The notes beneath the pieces are model-generated. The model was not told the origin of the DNA. It saw only the letters and a program-made list of their open reading frames with translations, and did not search any database. Positions 2,401 through 20,742 of a stretch of 64,000 bases of DNA are shown piece after piece. Both the position numbers and the translations under genes were made by a program. Position 1 is the first letter of the stretch. Each line of letters starts with the position of its first letter. Origin of the DNA: Bugula neritina (taxonomy: Eukaryota > Bryozoa > Gymnolaemata > Cheilostomatida > Bugulidae); contig OZ037769.1 in NCBI GenBank assembly GCA_964035545.1, forward strand, positions 111,001 through 175,000. The letters run 5' to 3'.

Positions 2401-3046
2401 ACTGAGTAACTCCAAGTTACAGCTTGCGGCAGATTAAGTTACCAAAAAGGCAAAGCTACACGTTGTAAGTTTAGCTATACCCTTGCATAGATTTTCTTCT
2501 ACAGCAAATAATATCGCAGATATTACATATAAATATAAGTATATTATATTCATATTGTTATATTCTATTGTATGCTCATTCTCAATGCGTCGTAATGACT
2601 GAGGGAAAATCAAAAAAGGTAGTCGTTTTAGCCTCGTTGCACACAAGATCTCTGCTGCCAAAATCCCACTATATCAACGGCCAGTTGAAAAGAGACCTAT
2701 GAGATTTACAAGGGGGCCATTCACCGAGCATTGCTAAATATAGCCAATTACTTTCATTGCGGAATTCATCGAACTTTGGAGTTGCGTTTTCCATGAACAG
2801 ACAACTCTGGAAAGCTGCAATCTTGAACTGGTGACAAGTCATTTATTAGATGCTGTATATCATCATGAACAGTGGTGTACAAGAACTGCATTGTAATATG
2901 TAATGGCATCTGTAATCTCAACTGATCCCTGAAGTATTCCATTTAGTATTTGCAACAAGTAGGAACATAAATTATTATATCTATGGGTCTTGTTTATGAC
3001 CATAACGAAGAAAGATACATGATAAAACAAGATGTAATTATATTTT
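2401..3046. other. Intergenic, nothing supported
   Basis: More complex sequence than the flank, but no recognisable gene. A 58-codon ATG-to-stop frame runs on the minus strand at 2669-2842. Its product is rich in aromatic and cysteine residues but matches no family I know, so it could be a decayed mobile-element fragment. Confidence 0.3.
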
Positions 3047-3052
3047 TTTATT
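3047..3052 (-). terminator. Putative polyadenylation signal of DHRSX-like gene
   Basis: AATAAA on the minus strand, about 170 bases beyond the stop codon of the dehydrogenase gene. The hexamer and its spacing are visible; its use is inferred. Confidence 0.4.
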
Positions 3053-3220
3053 TATCAGTGTTTAGCTAAAGAAGTAACCAATAATAAAAAACTTTTGCTG
3101 TTGGCAAACTGAATCTTCTTGACAAAACTAAAAGCAGCATACAGTTGGAGATGAGCTTAAACAGACTGGCACTAAGATACCAGGTGCCAGCAGCACTTTG
3201 AAGCACAAATAAATTTAAAT

Positions 3221-4383
3221 TTAGTCGATTTTAACATTACACTCCGTCTTATATATCATTTGACTGATAAATTTCCAGAACAGTTCTTTGTCTAAATTTG
3301 TAACAAAATTCAAAAAACTACAAGTTCCATTTTCAACGTAACTTCCATTAGCAACAGAGGAGTCGACTATAGAGTTGAGAATAGAGCAGGAGCCTTCGTC
3401 CAGCGTCCTGAAGAACATGGGAGCAAGTATATGTTTTTGTATGAGTCTGAGGGGGAGATAAGTATGCTGGTATAGCGAGGAGGCAACAACTCCCGGGTGT
3501 ACAGAGTGCACCCGTACAGAGGACTGTGTGAGGTGAGAAAGCTGCTGAGCAAGACACTCCGAGTAAAGTACTACTGCGAGTTTAGACTGAATGTAAGAGA
3601 GATGAGGCGAATATACTTGGGGCGTAGTATAAAGACTTCTACTAAACAACAACCGAACAAAGGCTATTTTATGTACAGAGGAAGCTATGTTGACAATCTG
3701 CGGCGAATATCCGTCAACAGCAGCCATTTTCAGTTTGGTCAGCAGCAACTTAGTGAGAAGGGAGTGTCCAATGAAGTTAACCCCCATGTGCTGCTCAAAC
3801 CCGTCTTCTGTCTTCATTTGCGGCAGCAACATCACACCGGCATTGTTTATTAACACATCTAATTTTGCAAATTTGAGAGAGAACTCTTTCACAGCATCAT
3901 GAATCGACTTGAATGAAGCTAAGTTCATATATATATAATGAAGTTGCCCTCTCTCTTTATATAGCCTTAGTTCACTTGAGTTAGACTGCTCAGGTATTGG
4001 TTGAAGGCCCGCAGCAACAACCGTAGCTCCTTTACTACATAAAATTCTACACACAGAGAGACCTACAATGAAATACCTTATATGGCAATATAATATTATC
4101 ATAACATATATAATATTGCTGTAGCATATATGTCATGACATATATAATATTGCTGTAGTGTGTATATCATGCTATATGTAATATATAACATATTTTTACC
4201 AATGCCAGACACACCACCAGTACAGAACACAACTCTCCCTCTGAAATAATCGTCATCAATTGACTCATCTAGCTCTACTCGCTGCCACACCTGCCCCACC
4301 ATCTCAACAAACCCATGAATGTAGAGTCGGACAGCACAATATACAGCTAGAAGGTACCCTCGAACTTTAGTTCCAATGTTCAT
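3221..4383 (-). CDS. DHRSX-like short-chain dehydrogenase/reductase
   Basis: Two coding exons, 4200..4383 and 3221..4062, join in phase across a GTAAAA...TAG intron to give about 341 residues. The N-terminus is a hydrophobic, membrane-anchor-like segment (about residues 5-30). It is followed by the Rossmann TGGVSGIG nucleotide-binding motif, which is split by the intron and restored by splicing. Downstream are NNAG, the catalytic Ser in IASS, and YxxxK in the sequence SYIQSK. The PGVV stretch and following C-terminal half resemble the DHRSX/retinol-dehydrogenase-like group, NAD(P)-dependent oxidoreductases of endomembranes. The ATG at 4383 was chosen because it opens directly onto the hydrophobic segment; an in-frame extension upstream exists but is not conserved in type. 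The exact substrate cannot be read from sequence, and another SDR-C subfamily (RDH/WWOX-like) remains possible. Confidence 0.85.
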
Positions 4384-4449
4384 CTGCCCATCAGTGTTAG
4401 TATCACCTATGAGGTAATACCATTTCAAGGTAAGAGTAATGGTAAGCAA

Positions 4450-4844
4450 TGTGAATATTATTCAGTGCTTGTGTGAATACCCATCTATAAGAATCTCTAT
4501 GTGAAAATTAATATTAATAATCCAAAATAAATATAAGTATGAGTATCAATTCACTTTAAATTTAATATTACTATTAGTGTTTGTATAAAGCTGTAATATT
4601 ATTATCAGTATGACTATGAGTATGTCTATCACCATTGGAATGTTTATTTAATATTTAATTTAATTATTTAGTATTTATTCTCGCCTATCTGTGCTTTGTC
4701 CTGTTCGAGTAGCACGCATTATTTAGCATTTATTACAGTCAGTATTACACTACTAGTACTGGTATTAGTATTACTATTATTATTTATATTGGTTGTATCA
4801 CAGATTTTAAGCTAGTGTAACCTTCTACCATCGGCCTAGTTCCA
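4450..4844. other. AT-rich upstream region of DHRSX-like gene
   Basis: This should contain the 5' UTR and promoter of the dehydrogenase on its left. No TATA box or other element could be assigned with confidence. Scattered AATACT-like hexamers occur at 4560-4790. Confidence 0.3.
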
Positions 4845-5108
4845 CTAGGCTGGGATAGATAAAACTTTCCTCAAAATGTGAGCTGATCCTAGTAAGGCTG
4901 TCTGCTGAATCAGTAGGTATTTGTTTTCAGCTACTCCAAGTAGTGCCATCCAGTCTACAGTCTTGTGTGAAGCTCCAAGGGCTCCAATTACAATGGGGAT
5001 GACTTCTGTTGATGTTTTCCAAAGGCGGGTAAACTCTAGTGCTAAATCCTGATATTTTCCTATCTTCTCTGATTCTTTTTCTTTTACTTTGTAGTCACCG
5101 GGACTGCG
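4845..5108 (-). mobile_element. LINE-type reverse transcriptase C-terminal fragment
   Basis: An intact 87-codon minus-strand frame ends at the stop codon 4845-4847. It contains the motif VIPIVIGALG, followed by a tail ending LRKVLSIPA. This resembles the C-terminal end of non-LTR retrotransposon polyproteins that are abundant in sponge and cnidarian genomes, just after the reverse-transcriptase domain. It has no start codon and its 5' side runs into low-complexity DNA, so it is a 5'-truncated insertion. Family assignment is from memory of this motif and not from a search. Confidence 0.6.
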
Positions 5109-5109
5109 A

Positions 5110-6385
5110 TATAAATGATTGTTATTATTATTATTATTATTAGTAATTTAAAAATACAAATATTTTAATTTAAATCTATTTTAATCTATACTTCTGCTTC
5201 AAATTGTCTTATAGTTAGACTTAAAGTTATAATTTAAACTATAATACTAACAGTAACACTAACAGTAACACCCACACTGTCAGTGTCACTAACAGACACC
5301 AGTTACAGTGACACTTACAGTGACACTAAAACTAAAAGTAAATTTAATACTAATAGTAATACTAATACTAATAGTAATAAGTAATAAGTAATACTAATAG
5401 TAATAGTAATACTAATAGTAATAGTAATACTAATACTAATAGTAATACTACTACTAATTCAGTAATTGTACTTTTAAAGGTTTGGCTAATGTTACAAGTA
5501 TAATTTAAGACCAGACTGAAAGTAAAACCAGCAATTCGAGGTTGGGCATAATCACCGAATAGAAGAATTAGCTTTAATTTACATAATTGACATTTGTAAG
5601 AATATTATAATAATATTAAATTTAATATTAAAAATTTACCAACAGTTTAGTTGGGAATGACTAGATGCAGCACAAAATTTAAAGTTACTATTTGTATACA
5701 CGTTGTTTAAAACTTTGATTTCTCAACTCTAAAATCAAGACCACTAAACCCCTGCTTTTTGCGATCTCAAACTTTGTGCTGCATTAAGCAATTACCAATT
5801 TAAAGTTTAGCCTTCGCCTTGGTGTAGTTTCTCACTTACTTTTTAGCTTTTGAAAGCAGAAGTAGTAGGCCTCCGTCGGTCAGTCCGACAATGGAGGGCA
5901 AGAAGATCACTAACAAATAGCCGAGCAGAGCAATAGATTTGTCCAATAGAAGCGGCCGAAACCACTGAACAGTTCATTGGCCGAAACACCGTTTGCAGAG
6001 TGCTATCTATGTCCCATTGTCCCATATGCATGAATTCATTTGTAGCTAGTGAGTTTTTTCCTGTAACCTCTTTGCTCGATAAATATGGGGTTTAGGCTTA
6101 CACCATGTCATTATAAATCAGTTCAATTATATAAACAATCACTATCTATCTGCATTGATTGGGTCCAACTATGTGTATAAATTCTATTTTCATGTTACCA
6201 AATTATCTGCTCATGCAGGCAGGATTCTCAGATATAATAAAACATTAGTTAGTTGGATATAAACACAGCAACAATAACTATTGCAAACAAAACATGTTTC
6301 ACTTATTTTATTTTGTCAGCGTTTGAGAGTTGTCACAGAGATTGTACATTCTACCTGAGGATGTTTTGGTTATAATATTCTGTGT
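5110..6385. other. Intergenic, low-complexity and unassigned DNA
   Basis: 5220-5460 is a run of AATACT/AATAGT-type hexamers. 5500-6385 is AT-rich without a recognisable gene. A 62-codon minus-strand frame at 5843-6031 has no recognised relatives and no splice context. Confidence 0.4.
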
Positions 6386-7227: not shown

Positions 7228-8309
7228 GTATTACTATAGTTGTTGAATCAAAGTATACAATTTAGTTATATGAGGTAAATACATTGTAATTCACTATATT
7301 ATTATGTACAAAATGATGCTATCCTCTTGAAAGAAATATTTTTGTGTATATTTGATTAAAACGAAATTAATGAATGTTTATAAATATATACTGATATACC
7401 GTATTGATAAGTTATAATACAATGCATGGTGCAGGTAAAGGCGCGCAGGTAAAGGCGTGGTAGAAATTGCCAGGTAGCCTGCCCATACCTTGTATTCGTG
7501 GTGTTAGCAGATGTGTGGTCACTGGGGATATTATGTGTGTATAATACGCGTGCACACGTATCTTATTAATATATAGCCTTATCCATAGCTTCTATATTTA
7601 TATCTGTATTAATACACGCTTTAGCCTTCAATTGCTGCATGAGAATACTCAAGTAGAATAGATAATCTCACTCATATCAAGGCATGCATTTGTCACGTGG
7701 TTTCAAGGACAAGCTAATTGTTTAAGGAAGTATAATAAGACGACCTTTCAACAGATATACCAAGTAGAGGGAGATAATCTTGGCTTATCTGTGTCACTGA
7801 TTGACTCATTTGTGTCACTTATTGTTATGGACTTTACAATCAGTGAGATTGGCCTTTGGTTGTTACATGTTATAGTGTTTTAGTATTGATGTGAGGTATT
7901 CCTTTAATTAGCACTGACTAAATGGTCTACCAGAATGTGCTATTATATTATATTGATATGTTATTATACCTTGATGGTTATATCAATATCATTATTGATA
8001 TAATAGTATTGCTATATTATTATTATACAATAGTATTGTTATATTAATATTATGATATATGCAAAGAGTGCTCACGTGAGAAGAGTGTAAAGCTTTCAGC
8101 ATTCCTGAATTTCATATAAAAGTGGACTATGATGTCACGGAATATATTATAATATCATATCGCAATACATTTTCATTTATATATGAATAATATATAATGC
8201 AATATATTACTCTATAATGCTACAATAGTTATAATATTGTGATAAGCAGTGCTGGAAATGCCTGGAGAGATGTAGACTGAGAACTCAGCCAATTAGTCGA
8301 GTCAACAGT
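7228..8309. other. Intergenic, nothing supported
   Basis: AT-rich DNA between the 28-base array and the 3' end of PISD. No open frame, RNA gene or mobile element could be supported on either strand. Confidence 0.4.
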
Positions 8310-8449: not shown

Positions 8450-11400
8450 TCACGCTTGAGCAGCGCTGGCTCTCTTCTCCTTTGCCGTCACCGGTTCACC
8501 CAGAGCTCCGCCCATTCTCACCGATTTATTCAATGAGAGCTCAGTGAAGTCAAATGCTTTTGGGGCCTCAAATATCATGACGATGGTGGAGCCCAGACGG
8601 AACTCTCCGAATGCATCTCCACGCTTTAGAGACACTCCACGGGGGAAGAATTCATCTTCATATGTCATTTCCTTTCGACCTTCACAGCCAGTGTTGGTTT
8701 CTAGTTTCTAAAGTAGTCAGTATAGAGTATATAGTGTATATAGTGTATATAGTGTATAGAGAGTATATAGAGTATATAGAGTATAGAGTGTATATAGAGT
8801 ATAGAGTGTATATAGTGTATATAGTGTATATAGTGTATATAGTGTATAGAGATTACATAGTACATAGTATATAGAACATAGTACATAGTACACAGTATAT
8901 AGTACATAGTATATAGTACATAGTATATAGTACAGAGTATATAGTACGTAGTATATAGTACATAGTACATAGTATATAGTACATAGTATATAGTACATAG
9001 TATATAGTATATAGTACACAGTATATAGTATATAGTACATAGTACAGAGTATATAGTACGTAGTATATAGTACATAGTACACAGTATATAGTACGTAGTA
9101 TATAGTACATAGTACATAGTATATAGTACAGAGTATATAGTATATAGTAGAGTACATAGTACACAGTACATAGTACATAGTATATAGTATATAGTACACA
9201 GTATATAGTACATAGTATACAGAGTATTATACAGAGTAGGAACTTACCGGGTCAAAGTAGGTGCGGATGGAGCCGACGTTAGTAGCGCCCACAGCTGTGT
9301 AGGAGAAGAAGCCATGTTTCCAGCTGCCCGTGTACACAGCTCTCTCGTTCATACTAAACAGTCCCTCCACGTAGCTGGCTATCATCGGGTTGACCGACAG
9401 CAGCTCTCCTACAATAAGTATACAGTGTCAGCACAGGCAGCGTCTAGTGTGTTACTACAAGACAGCGTCTAGTGTGTTACTACAAGACAGCGTCTAGTGT
9501 GTTACTACAAGACAGCGTCTAGTGTGTTACTACAAGGCAGTGTCTACTACAAGACAGCGTCTAGTGTGTTACTACAAGACAGCGTCTAGTGTGTTACTAC
9601 AAGGCAGCGTCTAGTGTGTTACTACAAGACAGCGTCTAGTGTGTTACTACAAGGCAGTGTCTACTACAAGACAGCGTCTAGTGTGTTACTACAAGACAGC
9701 GTCTAGTGTGTTACTACAAGGCAGCGTCTAGTGTGTTACTACAAGGCAGCGTCTAGCGTGTTACTACAAGACAGTGTCTAGCGTGTTACTACAAGACAGC
9801 GTCTAGTGTGTTACTACAAGACAGCGTAAAGACAGCACTCACCATGGAAGTGCCGTCTGTGTTCAACTGTCCAATCAGCAGGACTGTGGAATCTGTGGTA
9901 GTCGCCTGGAGCCAGATATATGACTACGTGGTAGAGTCTGTTGTCCTTGTTGTGTAGCAGAGACCTACCAAACACACGAGTAGTGAGTATACAGAGTAGA
10001 GTATACAGAGTATACAGAGTATACAGAGTACACAGAGTACACAGAGTACACAGAGTATACAGAGTAGAGTATACAGAGTACACAGAGTACACAGAGTACA
10101 CAGAGTACACAGAGTACACAGAGTACACAGAGTACACAGAGTACACAGAGTACACAGAGTATACAGAGTAGAGTATACAGAGTACACAGAGTACACAGAG
10201 TACACAGAGTGTACAGAGTGTACAGAGTATACAGAGTATACAGAGTACACAGAGTACACAGAGTATACAGAGTACACAGAGTACACAGAGTACACAGAGT
10301 ACACAGAGTACACATAGTGTACAGAGTGTACAGAGTATACAGAGTATACATAGTGTACAGAGTATACAGAGTACACAGAGTACACAGAGTAGTGAGTGTA
10401 GAGTACTGAGTGATACTAGTCACATACTTGTAATGCTGTGACTCGCTAATCCCTTTAAACTCGGCATCTGATTGGTCCAACTCCTTCTCCATCTCTAAAT
10501 CTGACCAACAGTTGGCGGAGGTCTTCCCCTCCTTGTACATCCACAGATTGTTTGGACCAAGAAACCCCTTCAATGAATAATTCACCCCCTTGACTTGCTC
10601 GATTGTTCCATCCACCACTTTGCCAAAATTCAAGACTTTCCCATCTGATGGCATAACCTGAGAAAGACACAGTACACCGCCGCAATATAATATAATACGA
10701 TATAATACTATAATATAACACAATGTAATATAATACAATATAATATAATACGATATAATATAATACACTACACAATATAATACTATAATATAACACAATG
10801 TAATACTATAATATAACACAATATAATATAATACAACACAATATAATAATATAATATAACACAATGTAATACCAACCAGTGAGTGATCCTCAGCTATGGG
10901 TCTGGCACCAGGTTTGAGGGCACGTCTGAAGAACTCCCCCAAGTTTCTATACTGACTGAGGTCCTCCACTAAGGCCTCCTGCACGTTGCAGTTGAACATC
11001 CGCACGTAAATAGAGAGTAGGAAGTTGCGAGAGAATTCTGGGAGAGGAAGCTCGTTGAACTTACCCCACACCCTGGACATGGCGCGGAGGGGGAGCGACC
11101 TGTACAGACTTACCTACAAGCAGCAGAACCTGGGCTATATAACTAGATAATATAACAATATAATATAACTATATAATATAATTTTATAATATATCTATAT
11201 AATATAATTTTATAATATAACTATATAATATAACTTTATAATATAACTATATAATATAACTATATAATATAACAATATAATATAACTATATAATATAACT
11301 ATATAATATAACTATATAATATAACTATATAATATATCTATATAATATAACTATATAATATAACTACATAATATAACTATATAATATATCTATATAATAT

Positions 11401-12643: not shown

Positions 12644-14666
12644 TCATCCCTTCCTCCATTCCTTCATCAGCAACTGCTGCAGCTTATTCCTTAACTCACT
12701 CGCACACTGCACACACTCGCATGCTACACACACTCGCACACTGCACACACTCGCACACTGCACACACTCGCACACTGCACACACTCGCACGCTACACACA
12801 CTCGCACACTGCACACACTCGCACGCTGCACACACTCGCACGCTGCACACACTCGTACACTACACACACTGCACACACTCAGCACACTACGTACACTGCA
12901 CACACTCGCACACTAGAGAGCTAAAGTCTAACAATAATGAGTACAACTACTAGCACAAACTTTAACAGAGAAAGGAGAGTTCTATGTTCAAGAGAATGTA
13001 TAGATAGTTCAATGGCTTGGGCATTACATAATCCTAATTATATAATATTGCTTGATATTATATACTCATTGAATGTGTATATTATATAAATACTCTTTAT
13101 ATACTCATTGAATGTATATATTAGTATATATATACTCTTTATATACTCATTGAATGTATATATTAGTATATATATACTCTTTATATACTCATTGAATGTA
13201 TATATTAGTATATAAATACTCTTTACATACTCATTGAATGTATATATTAGTATATAAATACTCTCTATATACTCATTGAATGTATATAGTATATAAATAC
13301 TCTCTATATACAGATGCAAAGTACGCAAGTACCAATATTTTAGCAATATATAAAAATAATTGTCGAAGCAAGTGTATTGTCAAAAATACGTAACTCGGCG
13401 AATTTATTAAAAATTCAACTAGTATTGGACAATTACCATTCTTTTATATAAAGTTTAGAATGTAACATTGACTCGAGAACAAAAAGATGCAGAGTTATCT
13501 TCTCAGGAGCAAATTATCAAAAGAGAATACAACCCTCGAAACCACACAAGCCATAAATCTTAAAACTATTGTGCATTATATTATTTAACATTATAATAGA
13601 GGATATTACAGTATATTATATTACAGTATAGCATATTATATTAATACAGTATATTATATTATATCACAGTATAGTGTATTATAGTATATTACAGTATATT
13701 ATATTACAGAATATTATAGTATATCTGTGAGATACAGTATATTATAGTATATCTGTGAGATACAGTATATTACAGTATATCTGTGAGATACAGTATATTA
13801 TAGTATATCTGTGATATACAGTATATTATAGTATATCTGTGAGATACAGTATATTATAGTATATCTGTGATATACAGTATATTATAGTATATCTGTGAGA
13901 TACAGTATATTATAGTATATCTGTGAGATACAGTATATTATAGTATATCTGTGAGATACAGTATATTATAGTATATCTGTGAGATACAGTATATTATAGT
14001 ACATCTGTGAGATACAGTATATTATAGTATATCTGTGAGATACAGTATATTATAGTATATCTGTGAGATACAGTATATTATAGTATATCTGTGAGATACA
14101 GTATATTATAGTATATCTGTGAGATACAGTATATTATAGTATATCTGTGATATACAGTATATTATAGTATATCTGTGAGATACAGTATATTATAGTATAT
14201 CTGTGAGATACAGTATATTATAGTATATCTGTGAGATACAGTATATTATAGTATATCTGTGAGATACAGTATATTATAGTATATCTGTGAGATACAGTAT
14301 ATTATAGTATATCTGTGAGATACAGTATATTATAGTATATCTGTGAGATACAGTATATTATAGTACATCACATATTCTACCTCCAGATTGCTGGCTAATT
14401 TCACAGAGTCAGTGCCAGTCTTCCGGGAGGACTTTATGGTAAGATATGCCAAGAGACCAGCTGTTACGGGGACTCCTGCTCTCCACACCCAAGGCTTTCC
14501 TGTCCAGATACAGAATAGAGGCTATGAGAAGTGAAAGAGCAAAAGAAAACAGCATCACTGGATAATGTGAGAGAGAGAGCAGAAACTTACTGGTGGGATG
14601 ACGACTCCAAGTTTCAGCAAATCGTTGTGTCTGGGGCCTTAGTGAGCTGGAACGTATAGTGATCAT
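12644..14666 (-). CDS. Putative small single-span membrane protein, family unknown
   Basis: Exons 14591..14666, 14381..14499 and 12644..12706 join in phase into about 85 residues. The N-terminus is basic and serine-rich with no acidic residue until after position 15, like a mitochondrial presequence. It is followed by one hydrophobic span (VPVTAGLLAYLTIK) and a charged, helical C-terminus ending LQQLLMKEWRKG. The splice sites look good (CCACCA|GTAAGT, GACAG|GAAAG, CTGGAG|GTAGAA). The last acceptor lies inside a 17-base repeat that offers many AG dinucleotides, so the final exon is the weakest part. A possible untranslated first exon is 15567..15666. I do not recognise the family; size and layout suggest a small mitochondrial inner-membrane protein, but this is inference only. 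Confidence 0.35.
12700..12915. repeat. 17-base minisatellite (CACACTCG...)
   Basis: About a dozen copies of a 17-base unit, core actcgcacactgcacac, with degenerate copies at the right end. It directly abuts the putative last exon of the small membrane-protein gene. Confidence 0.9.
13055..13315. repeat. About 42-base repeat (TATACTCATTGAATG)
   Basis: Six copies of a unit of roughly 42 bases with core tatactcattgaatgtata followed by an AT-rich spacer of variable length. Confidence 0.88.
13600..14368. repeat. 28-base minisatellite (GAGATACAGTATATTATAG)
   Basis: About 25 copies of a 28-base unit, core gagatacagtatattatag followed by tatatctgt. It begins ten bases inside the donor of exon 14381..14499. 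The left edge (13600-13720) is degenerate. Confidence 0.93.
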
Positions 14667-14689
14667 GCTACAAGTACACATGTTCATAC

Positions 14690-15501
14690 TGAGACATGTT
14701 GACACTGAGACATGTTGACACTGAGACATGTTGACACTGAGACATGTTCACACTGAGACATGTTGACACTGACATATGTTCATACTGAGACATGTTGACA
14801 CTGAGACATGTTGACACTGAGACATGTTCACACTGAGACATGTTGACACTGAGACATGTTGACACTGAGATATGTTCACACTGAGATATGTTGATACTGA
14901 GACATGTTTATACTGAGATATGTTGACACTGAGACATGTTGACACTGAGACATGTTCATACTGAGACATGTTTATACTGAGACATGTTGACACTGAGACA
15001 TGTTGACACTGAGACATGTTGACACTGAGACATGTTCACACTGAGACATGTTGACACTGAGATATGTTGACAATGAGACATGTTGACACTGAGATATGTT
15101 GATACTGAGACATGTTGACACTGAGACATGTTTATACTGAGACATGTTGACACTGAGACATGTTGACACTGAGACATGTTGACACTGAGATATGTTGACA
15201 ATGAGACATGTTGACACTGAGATATGTTCATACTGAGACATGTTGACACTGAGACATGTTGATACTGAGACATGTTGACACTGAGACATGTTGACACTGA
15301 GACATGTTGACACTGAGATATGTTGACACTGAGATATGTTCATACTGAGACATGTTGACACTGAGATATGTTGATACTGAGACATGTTGACACTGAGACA
15401 TGTTCACACTGAGATATGTTCATACTGAGACATGTTGACACTGAGATATGTTGATACTGAGACATGTTGACACTGAGACATGTTCACACTGAGATATGTT
15501 C
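14690..15501. repeat. 16-base minisatellite (GACACTGAGACATGTT)
   Basis: About 50 copies of gacactgagacatgtt with cacactgaga, catactgaga and tatgtt variants. Larger blocks (for example 15230-15360 versus 15350-15490) repeat the same order of variants. The array fills a likely intron between 15567..15666 and 14591..14666. Confidence 0.93.
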
Positions 15502-16195: not shown

Positions 16196-16199
16196 TTAA

Positions 16200-16380
16200 A
16201 GAATTCCTGACACACTTTACTTATATAGCATGAAAATATTCATCTATGTCTTGGCTATTATTTTAACACTCTTTTAGAGTTTCAGGTCTAAACAATTTTG
16301 TTTTATAACAATTTTAGTGCATGCATGTCCAAAAAACTTCCAGAATTTTTTTCGCCTTTCTGTGACGTATTACACCGCAG
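16200..16380 (+). repeat. Left terminal inverted repeat
   Basis: Matches the reverse complement of 20560-20738. The outer 60 bases are nearly identical, the middle is diverged with small indels, and the inner block around GCATGCATGTCCAAAAAAC and CGTATTAC is again well conserved. It starts immediately after TTAA. Confidence 0.85.
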
Positions 16381-16663
16381 TTGCGATAAATAGATGGTAA
16401 TGCCGCCTGTAAGACATTCGGAAAATAAATATAGGCTATATTTTCCGTTGCATGTAACCTTAGTTTTAGCATTTTTAATTTATCGGACGTCTGTCTAGCC
16501 CCCCAATTAGTGTTTTTTTGTGGAATTTAGGTTTTATTTCATAAACAAATTTCGCGGCAATAAAGACATAGCTACCAACTTTAACTTACCGTGTCCGAGT
16601 CTGTGCAGTGTAATTGTGATAAAGTTAAATCTAATACAGAAATAACATAAATACGATATCAAT

Positions 16664-18393
16664 ATGAACATATCTGGCTCTGACGAAGAATACTTAGAGC
16701 ACAGTGAGAATCGCAATGAGTATGACTATGACAATCACACTCACGCTGTCACTGAGATTTCTGAAGTAATGGGCTATCAGTTTGAGCCGTTTACGTATCA
16801 AGATGAAAATGGAGATGATAGTCATGACAAGGATTTTAATGTTACTGATGAGCAACAGGTGATAATATTTATAATTTTACAGTATCAGTACGATTTAATT
16901 TTATAAACTATATTGTTACTAATAGTAATAGTAGTACTAATACCGTAATACTAATAGTAATAGTAATACTTTAACTTTAAGTTATAAGTATAAGCTAGTA
17001 TAAGTTATAAATTATTATAATTATAATATTTAATTTTCATTTTGTAATCGTAATGCCAATGCTCAATGCCAATGCTCGTATTGATCCTGGCTTAATTAGT
17101 TAATAATAATATAGCTGGGTTTTGTGCTACTAAAGCTTTAGAGCAAGCATGATATCAAATTACAAGCTAAATATTTGATGATTGCTATCAGTTTATATAA
17201 TATTATTAATAATAAAGTGATAATCATTAAATTTAATGATCACAAATTCCAGTCAAGTAATTAAATATTTGATCAATACTAATTTTGTTATTACTACTAC
17301 CAATACAGGTATTAGTATTAATTATTTGTAGTTAGATTTACCTGATAATTTAAGTCAAGGGAAAGACTGTATTCTTATAAATGCATAATAATGATAATTA
17401 TTATTCACTTTTATTGTAATTGTGGTTATACCGATCCTTAACAAAATAAGTTAATCACATACATAATCATGTCAAACTTGCATTCACGATGATAGTATTT
17501 AGTATTTTATTTCTAAGCCCCCTATTTCTCTGAATTTCTGCTTTTATAGTATAACATATAGTACTAACAACAATAAAATATTTTAAAATTCCTGAAAATT
17601 AGTTTATTTCATAGCAAAAATTATGAGTTTGTTTTAATATAAAAAATCTAATTAATTTTTAACTATAAATATAAAAATAGTTTGAACAGTAATGCAAACT
17701 TGGAATATTTTAAAACCCATGATTTTAAAGTATTTTCAAACTTCAGCCTCATTGGACTCAATTTTCAATACAAAGAAAAGTACAGGAAACAAATTTAGAC
17801 ACAGTAACTAATGGACTTAATGTGGATGATACTGGTAATAACGTTTTTAGAAAAGCTTGTTTGTTTTGTAGAAAAATATAAGGCCAGCCACGGAGTGGTG
17901 CACTTGCCACCGCTGCCAAAATCAGCCTACAGTGGAACAGTCTGTTTGTTGCCGTGATCATGCTGCAAACCTTCGATTAGATAGCAGCATGGAATGTATA
18001 ACACAGCACCCGGGAGTACAGCAATTGACGCAACCAGCTGTATTAGAAGTTGCATACAGCAGCTACCTGAGATATCATGGTTAGTCAATTGCTACTGTAT
18101 ATCAGTAACTGTCATTGTTAGTTTTTCTAGATAGTCTTACTTGATTATTTAGCCAATCATTTATTTTGGTAGATGACTTGTTTGATGAGAAGGCCCATTC
18201 TCTCAACACTAAAAAAAGGTTCTGCAGCTACCGGTTTTTGGTGTTCTGGCTGTTTCCAGATATTAAAAAAGGTGAGAGACGCCCTTTACCAGCTTGCTTA
18301 TATGATTGGGTGCAAGCTACATTCCCCCCAACTGATGATGAGGAAGAATTTGCTGAATGGATGTTCAGCAAATTCGTGATTTATGAACATTAA
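16664..18393 (+). CDS. P2X7 receptor C-terminal-like ('ballast') domain protein
   Basis: Exons 16664..16858, 17872..18079 and 18173..18393 join in phase to 207 residues. The N-terminus is acidic and includes MGYQFEPF, resembling the PYxFEP motif that precedes ballast domains in invertebrate proteins. The second exon carries the zinc-binding pattern WCTCHRC ... CCRD, then CITQHPG. The third carries a YRxxxFW stretch and the RRPLPACLYDWV segment matching the 'R.V.PACVVW' signature of this domain. There is no P2X channel portion, so it is a stand-alone cytoplasmic domain protein, as seen in many invertebrates. Function is unknown; zinc and possibly nucleotide binding is inferred from the vertebrate P2X7 tail. 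It lies inside a TIR element, running from the left end inward toward the THAP gene. Confidence 0.82.
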
Positions 18394-18542
18394 CACTCTG
18401 GTGATTTATATATAATATAATATAATATAACAATATTGTTTTTATGAAACTTTGTGACATAGTATAACTTTTTACATATTTTTACCAATATATTGTTTTA
18501 TTTATTGCTATTTATTGTTTTCACATTGCTATTTATGGCTCT

Positions 18543-18548
18543 AATAAA
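18543..18548 (+). terminator. Putative polyadenylation signal, ballast-domain gene
   Basis: AATAAA 150 bases beyond the stop codon on the plus strand. It faces the opposing AATAAA of the THAP gene about 90 bases away, so the two transcripts probably overlap at their 3' ends. Confidence 0.5.
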
Positions 18549-18632
18549 GTACCAACAAAACCAAACATACAGTGAAAACGAATATTTACATTTCAATGGA
18601 AACTGAGACTACAAGTAGATATATTGTCCAAA

Positions 18633-18638
18633 TTTATT
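18633..18638 (-). terminator. Putative polyadenylation signal, THAP gene
   Basis: AATAAA on the minus strand about 115 bases past the THAP stop codon; tail-to-tail with the ballast-domain gene. Confidence 0.45.
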
Positions 18639-18752
18639 TTTGACACACCTTGAGGTGGAAAATTAAAAATATTATTTCCATTACACAAAAATATTTGTTT
18701 TTTTTGTTGCATTAGAACATGCATTTTAAATAAAAATAACTATGGAGAAAAG

Positions 18753-19990
18753 CTATGAATTCAGTTTTTGAGCTAAGTGAACAATACTATTTCGCCATAT
18801 TTCTATATACCAGCATTGAACAGCTTTGCTTCTAATCTTTTTCTGCATCCTTTTAGGTGTTTGCACATATTTATTGTGTCCTATTCCTTTCTGTAGGCCC
18901 TTCTTTTCTGGCTTAAGATTGAGAGCTGGTTTTTTAGTTTGACTTGGCAAAGCTCTAAAATATTATTATATATGAAGGTAAATGGAAAAGTATTATTGAA
19001 ACAGCTGCAGAAAATCTCAATTGCTGTCTATATCATATTTCAATTTTATTGCTCAAGATCGCATTTTCAATATTATAATCCTTACAGAAAACCAGGGTCT
19101 GATCTTTTTAACCAGCGAGCTTCTTTAGGTGTGATAGTGGCCGCCTGCTGACTTTGTTTCCGAGGAGTTAATGGAGTGCATCCAGTGGCACCCTCAGTTT
19201 CCACTAAATGAATAGTTGGGACTGCTGTTTTCTCTAAATGCAATCTAAAGAGTAAATCAAAGACAATGAATTTTTATTCTTTCAATAAGCTAAGTGGACA
19301 ATATTTACCATTAATTTTTACTGGTATTGATGATGGGCACCATTACCAGTATCATACTCATAGCATGAGTATCAGTGCGTATGAATCATAATATCAATGG
19401 TATGTATCCAAGTGACTATGACACATTCTGATAATCATAAGTCTTTCATATTATCGCCATTATAAATGAATTTCCTTACAATAATGGTTATCGTGTAAAT
19501 CATAAATGCAAACTTGTACTTGCAAGTTTATGTCATAGTCACATGAAATTGAATCAACACGGTCATGACAATCCTATTGACTTATACCAACTTGTAGTAA
19601 TACTTAATAGTTATAGTTATACTTATTGTTGAAAATCAACATTAAAAAACTATCATTATCGTCTAATTCTATCACAATCACTAACTCTAAGTCAGTATCA
19701 CTATGAGTTTGAGTGAGTTATTCACTTACATGTTAATGAGTTTTGCTTTATACATGCCCATATTAAATATTTGTAAATTGTTCATCACCAAAATGCTGAA
19801 AACACAAACGAGAGTTGTTATCAGGCAGAAAGTTTTTTCTTTTCGTATTGAAAAACTTGGTCCATTTTTCACCACACACAGTATCAGCAGGCCATTTAAA
19901 CATGTGTTTTTCCTTGTACGAACGCATTGCAGCTTCACACACTCTTCTTTTGCATTTGCCTTTAGAACTTGAAGCCATTCGTGTAGTCAT
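18753..19990 (-). pseudogene. THAP zinc-finger protein gene, probably splice-broken
   Basis: Exon 19767..19990 starts at an ATG and encodes a C2CH THAP finger: CKRRVC, KWP, W, then LCFQHF. Exon 19086..19244 continues with the conserved AVPTI motif that closes THAP domains, and exon 18753..18954 adds a basic tail. Exons two and three join perfectly in phase (TTTTCT|GTAAGG to TTTTAG|A). The first junction needs a phase-2 donor just after the FTN residues, but the sequence there reads TT at 19766-19765 where GT is expected, and translation would stop two bases later. With that junction the protein would be about 194 residues. THAP proteins bind DNA and occur in host factors and in transposases; no DDE domain follows here. 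Alternatives are a missed small exon or a non-canonical donor. Confidence 0.65.
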
Positions 19991-20559
19991 GTCGACAGTA
20001 AGTGCAAGTGTAACTAGTAATATAGGTAATAAGTTTGTTCACTAGAGTCCAATGGCAATATGAATATAAAATCGAATTTATATAGATAGCGAGCGACTAC
20101 TACTAGTAGTAGTACTACTAGGCACAGGTTATATTGGTAATATCCGGTTACGGTAATGATAATCTATTTGGAAGCGTAATAAGTTACATAATTGAATATG
20201 CAATTATTTGTAATGTTTTATAGAAAAGTTTGCCACTCGTTGGATTTAGCTAATTTCTTTTAACAATATCGTGTTATCACCGTACTTAGCCACCCGTTCT
20301 AATTACATCGTGAGGGTGAGGCTATTTCATTTTTCCGATGCTCAAAATTTCTAACGGAAGTAACTTTAGCTTCTAATATCAATAATAAAATGGTATCATT
20401 TGTTTTTTTCATTGAGCATTAGTTGTACTCTGTGTTTTAAAATTTATGTCAGTATAGTGATTTATCTGTGTGTTGCAGTGGCTAAAAATAACACGCTGCG
20501 AAAGTATGCAATTATTACTATTAGTTATATAGTAACTAGGACTCGAAGCAGACCGGAAA

Positions 20560-20738
20560 CCGGCGTAATACGTGTGCACTGAGAGCTTAGAAATCCGAAA
20601 GTTTTTTGGACATGCATGCAGTAAAGTTGTTATAAAATGAAATAGTATAGCCATCCACCCTTAAAAGGATGCTTAATTGATAGCTAAGATATAGATGAAT
20701 ATTGTCATGCTATATAAGTAAAGTGTGTCAGGGATTCT
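20560..20738 (-). repeat. Right terminal inverted repeat
   Basis: Inverted counterpart of 16200-16380, ending immediately before TTAA at 20739-20742. The outer end reads AGAATCCCTGACACAC on the minus strand. Confidence 0.85.
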
Positions 20739-20742
20739 TTAA

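Follow-up and report, generated by a model that had tools for sequence, protein, structure and literature searches.

We describe a DNA transposon with two converging genes in the bryozoan Bugula neritina, located in a stretch of 64,000 nucleotides (contig OZ037769.1, positions 111,001 to 175,000, assembly GCA_964035545.1) that is referred to here as the window and numbered from its first base. The element occupies positions 16200-20738 (4,539 bp), has inverted ends and is bordered on both sides by TTAA (Table 1). Its terminal sequences are AGAATTCCTGACACAC and AGAATCCCTGACACAC, and its termini read AG...CT, that is, 5'-RR and YY-3'. The two ends align with each other without gaps over 140 bp (83.6%, E 5e-36), and with TTAA counted in the arms are 152 bp long and 83% complementary. 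A first-pass annotation of the window had put the ends at about 180 bases; the inverted repeats are real, but that length is slightly generous, as a single further match of 13 bp (166-178) lies past the arms. As that annotation had also described, a gene on the plus strand and a THAP exon on the minus strand run toward each other from opposite ends of the element.

The plus-strand gene, for which we use the name KolX (see below), has three exons with GT/AG borders that join into a continuous predicted frame of 207 residues; gene models here are predictions made from the sequence by eye. Residues 54-190 match the Pfam family PF20478 (P2RX7_C; E 3.8e-14, 53.5 bits against a cut-off of 23.5), and the product matches residues 470-593 of the P2X7 structure PDB 6u9v (E 4e-4). 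Pfam returned P2RX7_C only, up to an E value of 10, and no P2X channel domain; the gene is predicted to encode a stand-alone P2X7 C-terminal domain, as originally proposed. The final residues of the window product are KFVIYEH, as compared to KFVYNEDL in other open copies. Three database relatives were found, and the two named ones are from the bryozoan Watersipora subatra. KolX had no match among phage records, and a search of viral contigs gave one candidate and no confirmed match. A PF20478 profile scan of the genome gave no match, an uninformative outcome given that the KolX exons are split and that no control genome matched, and a protein query was used instead.

Table 1. Coordinates of the transposon features in the window.
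Feature	Position	Strand	Basis and remarks
Left TTAA target-site duplication	16196..16199	.	TTAA on both sides confirmed by script in 23 copies, by reading in the 2 longest
Left terminal inverted repeat	16200..16339	+	140-bp core, weaker likeness to ~16380; at least 41 genome matches
KolX exon 1, acidic N-terminus	16664..16858	+	ATG, GT donor, frame runs on into exon 2
KolX exon 2, cysteine-rich (CxCxxC...CC...C)	17872..18079	+	AG acceptor, GT donor; Pfam and PDB matches
KolX exon 3 and stop	18173..18393	+	Pfam match, splice borders
Deletion scar	18405..18412	.	Copy comparison
Predicted transposase exon 2 (AVPTIHL...)	19086..19226	-	Open stretch; borders approximate; AVPTIHL follows THAP in P0005 also
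Predicted transposase exon 1, THAP domain	19731..19978	-	Start 19978; 3' border approximate; Pfam and copy alignment
Right terminal inverted repeat	20599..20738	-	140-bp core
Right TTAA target-site duplication	20739..20742	.	

The element belongs to a family with many copies. In the genome from which the window comes (215.8 Mb, 295 contigs), the left end has at least 41 matches and the right end at least 41, both counts being lower bounds from the 40 of 270 and 40 of 239 candidates that were scored. A 20-base terminal pattern that includes TTAA occurs 264 times (124 + 140) when at most one mismatch is allowed, as compared to 0 + 0 occurrences of the reversed control. We sampled 25 loci with both ends, made up of 20 main copies (L009-L028) together with L029/L030, L031/L032, L033, L034 and L035, plus seven loci retrieved on a match to one end. 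TTAA is present on both sides in 25/25 two-ended copies; the end queries opened with TTAA (4 of 185 and 188 bases), which selects slightly toward TTAA-flanked copies. One of the seven one-end loci, L041, also has another end at a distance of about 2.1 kb, which is diverged and flanked by TTAA; this locus was kept outside the 25. The main copies are 4.54-4.94 kb long, except for L015 (7.42 kb), and the other five measure 12.3, 12.6, 8.0, 1.15 and 0.4 kb. Both the KolX and the THAP regions are found in all 20 compared copies, with roughly the last 30 bp of KolX missing from L024, while neither gene is present in L034 (1.15 kb) and L035 (0.4 kb) and KolX exons 2 and 3 are absent from L033. The first-pass proposal of a multi-copy, TTAA-flanked inverted-repeat transposon is therefore upheld, and none of the three outcomes named as fatal to it (no other copies of the ends, ends that never accompany either gene, or chance similarity of low complexity) was observed.

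Copies L025 and L026, each of 4,540 bp, show no difference in their aligned columns (100% identity), indicating recent movement of the element family. We looked for empty insertion sites, as the first-pass annotation had suggested, and found one related site: the joined flanks of L022 align unbroken over 390 bp (71.5%) with a gypsy relative that lies in L033, but this relative has no TTAA at the point matching the L022 insertion site. Compared with the retrieved loci only, the joined flanks of the other 22 of 23 copies gave no spanning match. Three of the longer loci (L029/L030, L031/L032 and L033) are Kolobok copies with nested gypsy-type long terminal repeat (LTR) retrotransposons. The 307-bp terminal repeats of the nested elements are 100% identical in two of the three, indicating that these two insertions are recent. 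The three loci were considered as autonomous elements and rejected, as their inserts look like gypsy-type LTR elements and not like a transposase (translations judged by eye).

The THAP exon of the window is frameshifted by a 7-bp insertion (19760-19766) that the first-pass annotation had not noted, and the truncated exon scores 22.5 bits, just below the Pfam cut-off of 23.9; the THAP exon of L015 together with its next exon scores 35.9 bits. The centre of L015 is about 2.57 kb longer and holds exons on the THAP strand with three motifs: TTDRH lines up with the second catalytic D of related transposases, DTWH with their DxxH and NTSELESFH with their catalytic E; the DDE assignment of this remnant rests on that motif alignment. 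A related locus, L045 (G000:C6:5890500-5900499), has the first D, the second D, the DxxH and the E motifs. In L045 and in a second related locus, L044 (G000:C5:13488500-13498499), KolX and DDE exons stand tail to tail. A THAP exon (9511-9699, minus strand) lies upstream of the same-strand DDE exons in L045, with KolX converging on them, and L044 has KolX and DDE exons and no THAP match. The best database relative of the L045 transposase is a Bugula neritina protein (P0004; 79% identity over 55% of the query) that is near-identical in the DDE blocks shown. A precomputed THAP domain is annotated in 10 of 71 database transposase relatives, and P0005 (fish), P0006 and P0041 (snail) each combine a THAP domain with an A(V/I)P stretch and DDE in a single protein. 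The same-strand DDE exons of L015, the L045 arrangement and these three proteins indicate that the THAP exon opens a THAP-DDE transposase gene. Judged from sequence, then, the THAP "gene" of the first-pass annotation is the 5' part of the predicted Kolobok transposase of the element itself and not a second cargo gene: the THAP exon is present as described, but it encodes an N-terminal part that is frameshifted in the window. The same annotation had asked whether other copies carry the same two genes and a DDE transposase; both gene regions are in 20/20, but among the aligned copies DDE exons were seen only in L015 and are incomplete there.

The missing centre has been lost more than once. Relative to the copies of 4.85 kb, the window copy lacks about 290 bp at the scar listed in Table 1, and relative to L015 it lacks about 2.9 kb with the transposase exons. 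In an alignment of 21 copies (L029 being included with its nested insert removed), all copies but L015 lack nearly all of the central transposase segment, with at least four different breakpoints (column pairs 2627/5200, 2588/5521, 2584/5054 and 2629/5048). Nine of the 21 share a gap that ends at column 5200 and starts at 2627 or 2629, seven share one from 2588 to 5521, and the window copy, L022, L024 and L027 each have a gap of their own. One of the nine, L013, retains 67 bp more and may represent a deletion of its own; L022 and L024 retain 130-170 bp of the central segment. Only one junction was examined, that of L010 against L015; it shows microhomology of 1 bp and lacks a duplication, which argues for a deletion in L010. 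We rejected the converse, that the centre of L015 is an insertion, as neither a duplication nor element ends are present at its junction with L010. The window copy, having lost its DDE exons and with its THAP frame broken, appears to be non-autonomous.

These features agree with a known group of transposons. Kol0 elements of the Kolobok superfamily are reported to encode a DDD/E transposase and KolX, the latter with the fold of the P2X7 cytoplasmic ballast (Kojima & Bao 2022, PMC9587614). The same source gives TTAA and 5'-RR termini as Kolobok marks, the termini separating Kolobok from piggyBac. A Kolobok transposase is further expected to have DDD/E and C/DxxH motifs and a zinc finger; the DDD/E and C/DxxH motifs are absent from the window copy, and L015 has TTDRH, DTWH and TSELE without the first D. 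On these sequence grounds the window element very probably represents a new family of the known Kol0-type Kolobok group with KolX. The first-pass view that a ballast gene is no standard part of Kolobok elements is not sustained, since this gene is published as KolX and is standard in Kol0 (PMC9587614).

We conclude that the window unit very probably belongs to a Kol0-type Kolobok family, as a non-autonomous copy with an internal deletion. Starting from what is observed directly (the ends with their TTAA, the number of copies and their gene content, the series of deletions, the L015 remnant and between-family KolX constraint), we propose that the ancestral element would have had two tail-to-tail genes, KolX and, on the opposite strand, a THAP-DDE transposase, and would have moved by cut-and-paste, the THAP-DDE transposase acting on the ends. 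The central DDE exons may then have been lost several times through interrupted repair of excision gaps, and derivatives retaining the ends, KolX and the THAP exon could have been mobilised in trans into TTAA. In this scheme KolX may be an accessory factor in transposition that perhaps binds zinc and partners the transposase.

Several observations weigh against this reading. The L015 remnant matches Pfam DDE families weakly and below cut-off (best Mutator, E 0.0066), and the first-D stretch (GDGRCDSPGHS of L045) matches three loci, L045, L044 and L046, and not L015. The copies with window-type ends yielded no complete transposase. KolX matches were present in just two (L044 and L045) of five related DDE loci (L043-L047), the remaining three (L043, L046 and L047) having DDE matches and no KolX within the 10 kb retrieved. 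The 11 kb around L045 contains no convincing TTAA-flanked inverted ends, the best TTAA pair agreeing in 11 of the first 16 bases. Finally, KolX has 34 nonsynonymous and 10 synonymous changes within the family, 0.8-1.2 of the neutral ratio, with no clear purifying selection.

The THAP exon has 10 nonsynonymous and three synonymous distinct changes within the family; in these counts gapped codons were skipped and broken copies were included. Open frames were tallied in the 20 main copies: 13 for KolX, including L022, whose first splice donor is altered; 14 for the THAP exon, which is not open in the window copy; and nine for both. Differences per site in KolX are lowest in exon 2 (0.034), as compared to exon 1 (0.067), exon 3 (0.126) and intron 1 (0.082); the low exon 2 diversity is a hint of weak KolX constraint within the family. 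Between families KolX is conserved: for exon 3, pN is 0.18 and pS 0.98 between the window and L045, and dN is 0.026 and dS 0.19 between L044 and L045. Conservation between families together with near-neutrality within this one suggests that KolX is constrained in source elements, while the derivatives mostly drift.

The deletion series and the open frames bear on a different account of the unit, that it is a two-gene element in its own right whose short THAP protein represses or partners a transposase supplied in trans and so drives the spread of the derivatives. Such a protein would resemble KP of P elements, a repressor encoded by an internal-deletion derivative as a truncated transposase with the THAP part. 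Deletions with different breakpoints all spare the KolX and THAP exon regions (L024 losing the end of KolX), and the proportions of open frames given above are in its favor. However, loss of the centre alone would leave the outer parts anyway, substitutions are near neutral in both genes, the THAP frame of the window copy is broken, and the short derivatives L034 and L035 have neither gene. We therefore consider this account unlikely.

It is very improbable that the element captured its ballast gene from the host and carries it as a passenger. Stand-alone ballast-domain genes do occur in many animals (PMC7016195), and three of the five related DDE loci retrieved gave no KolX match, but the Kolobok loci L044 and L045 of the same genome have KolX in the same place and orientation and constrained between them, and the whole Kol0 group is reported to bear KolX (PMC9587614). 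An assignment to piggyBac, which also duplicates TTAA and includes a few families encoding a protein that resembles part of KolX (PMC9587614), deserves hardly any credence, since the 5'-AG termini are of the Kolobok RR type and unlike those of piggyBac, the transposase remnant is Kolobok-like with THAP, and no piggyBac transposase was noticed inside the copies, though these were not scanned with a piggyBac model.

Other KolX-like sequences are present in the genome. Approximately 87 of the listed genome matches belong to a repeated family that matches KolX residues ~72-119. The copy of this family that was retrieved (L049, G000:C8:9946400-9947900) is a decayed two-exon KolX relative with stops; the family is probably fossil and non-autonomous, and would have carried a dead KolX along as it spread. 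At a further locus (L048, G000:C6:12938500-12947499), a tandem array of ~1-kb units has six matches to the last KolX exon (41-52% identity), and a weak match to an upstream KolX exon lies beside the array at 8127-8300. This locus may be a host gene whose 3' exons are repeated, or it may be a stacked element.

The small insertions in the copies show a recurrent pattern. The alignment of the 20 main copies contains 54 distinct insertions of 3-20 bp, and 24 of them have a length of exactly 6 bp; 10 of the 24 duplicate the neighbouring 6-mer perfectly, nine do so except at the last base and five follow neither pattern. The last base is the complement in eight of the nine imperfect duplications (by reading of the list; p ~0.001 against 1/3). 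Examples are found at window 19760-19766 and in L015, L018, L021 and L022. Pairwise comparison of older copies and other loci yielded 138 small indels, of which 29 are 6 bp long (28, 32, 11, 7 and 3 for lengths of 3, 4, 5, 7 and 8 bp). One of the 29 is a perfect duplication, and 14 match over 4 or 5 bases, nine of the 14 being complementary (p 0.017). In favor of a general process, 118 kb of retrieved DNA in which the family was masked contains 83 neighbours of 6 bp whose end base is complemented, as compared to 47.5 in a Markov control whose 10 runs reached 54 at most; those with other transversions number 42 (control 40.6) and those with transitions 52 (control 36). Complemented neighbours of 5 bp (154 vs 111) and 7 bp (28 vs 14) are raised too, however. 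In a different, unmasked locus set of 126 kb there are 99 complemented 6-bp neighbours, as compared to 36 in the control. Only two of 36 indels outside the Kolobok family are 6 bp long, and none of three in the L048 array, which speaks against a general 6-bp process.

Excision of hAT elements leaves small insertions complementary to the flank that are ascribed to hairpins (PMC3499496). We tentatively suggest, as a possibility that we rate as doubtful, that the Kolobok copies record a mutational process producing 6-bp duplications with a complemented last base, like the footprints of hAT-type hairpin-opening excision. Among the longer insertions listed in the aligned copies, no resident element with a 6-bp target duplication was found, and a literature search combining footprint, 6-bp target site duplication and hairpin gave no match. 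If the suggestion is true, the DNA of this bryozoan may be cut and resealed very often, either by an enzyme of the transposase type or by an unknown route of break repair. Apart from the element, a large part of the window is taken up by dense tandem repeats, at 14000-15400 and in many stretches of 20739-64000 (28-bp and 16-bp units, and short-unit arrays with open frames).

The first-pass annotation had further suggested that ballast-domain genes spread as transposon genes, with consequences for the origin of the P2X7 tail. The idea is sound but already in print: Kojima & Bao (2022, PMC9587614) derive P2X7 from the fusion of a P2X4-like gene with KolX and regard zebrafish Nanor as probably KolX-derived too. 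Literature searches on KolX with Kolobok and on P2X7 with transposon and ballast from 2020 found nothing beyond that paper, and one on Kolobok with P2X added a review. Ballast-domain genes are described as widespread in animals by Rump et al. (2020, PMC7016195), with no mention of transposons in the portions consulted; one Ixodes ballast protein listed there has an N-terminal domain spelled 'TAHP', which may mean THAP. The Bugula family adds independent bryozoan support for ballast-domain genes travelling in Kolobok transposons, and it cautions that an invertebrate gene annotated as a stand-alone ballast-domain gene may belong to a transposon. Constraint between families and near-neutrality within derivatives are what is expected of a protein that the active source element requires but each single copy does not, and the young Kolobok copies provide a set for asking what KolX does.

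The window family resembles KP-type P-element derivatives in that its truncated transposase keeps the THAP part after internal deletion. It differs from them in that no selection is seen on the Bugula THAP fragment, for which a KP-like repressor role is possible. The KolX protein resembles the P2X7 ballast and the ZCD proteins (PTHR36981; PMC7016195) in its WCxCxxC, CIT, CxYR and LPxC motifs, which align with P2X7, and in a CC pair that both have, though offset in the printed alignment; unlike the P2X7 receptor, it stands alone as 207 residues with no joined channel. As for Kol0 itself, the Bugula family differs in being found only as copies that lack part or all of the DDE core, and the THAP exon that opens its predicted transposase gene is not discussed in the main text of PMC9587614. 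With Kol0 elements of the Kolobok-1_XT type it shares the TTAA duplication, the 5'-RR/YY-3' termini and KolX, and probably also a DDD/E transposase with C/DxxH, of which L015 keeps a remnant that lacks the first D.

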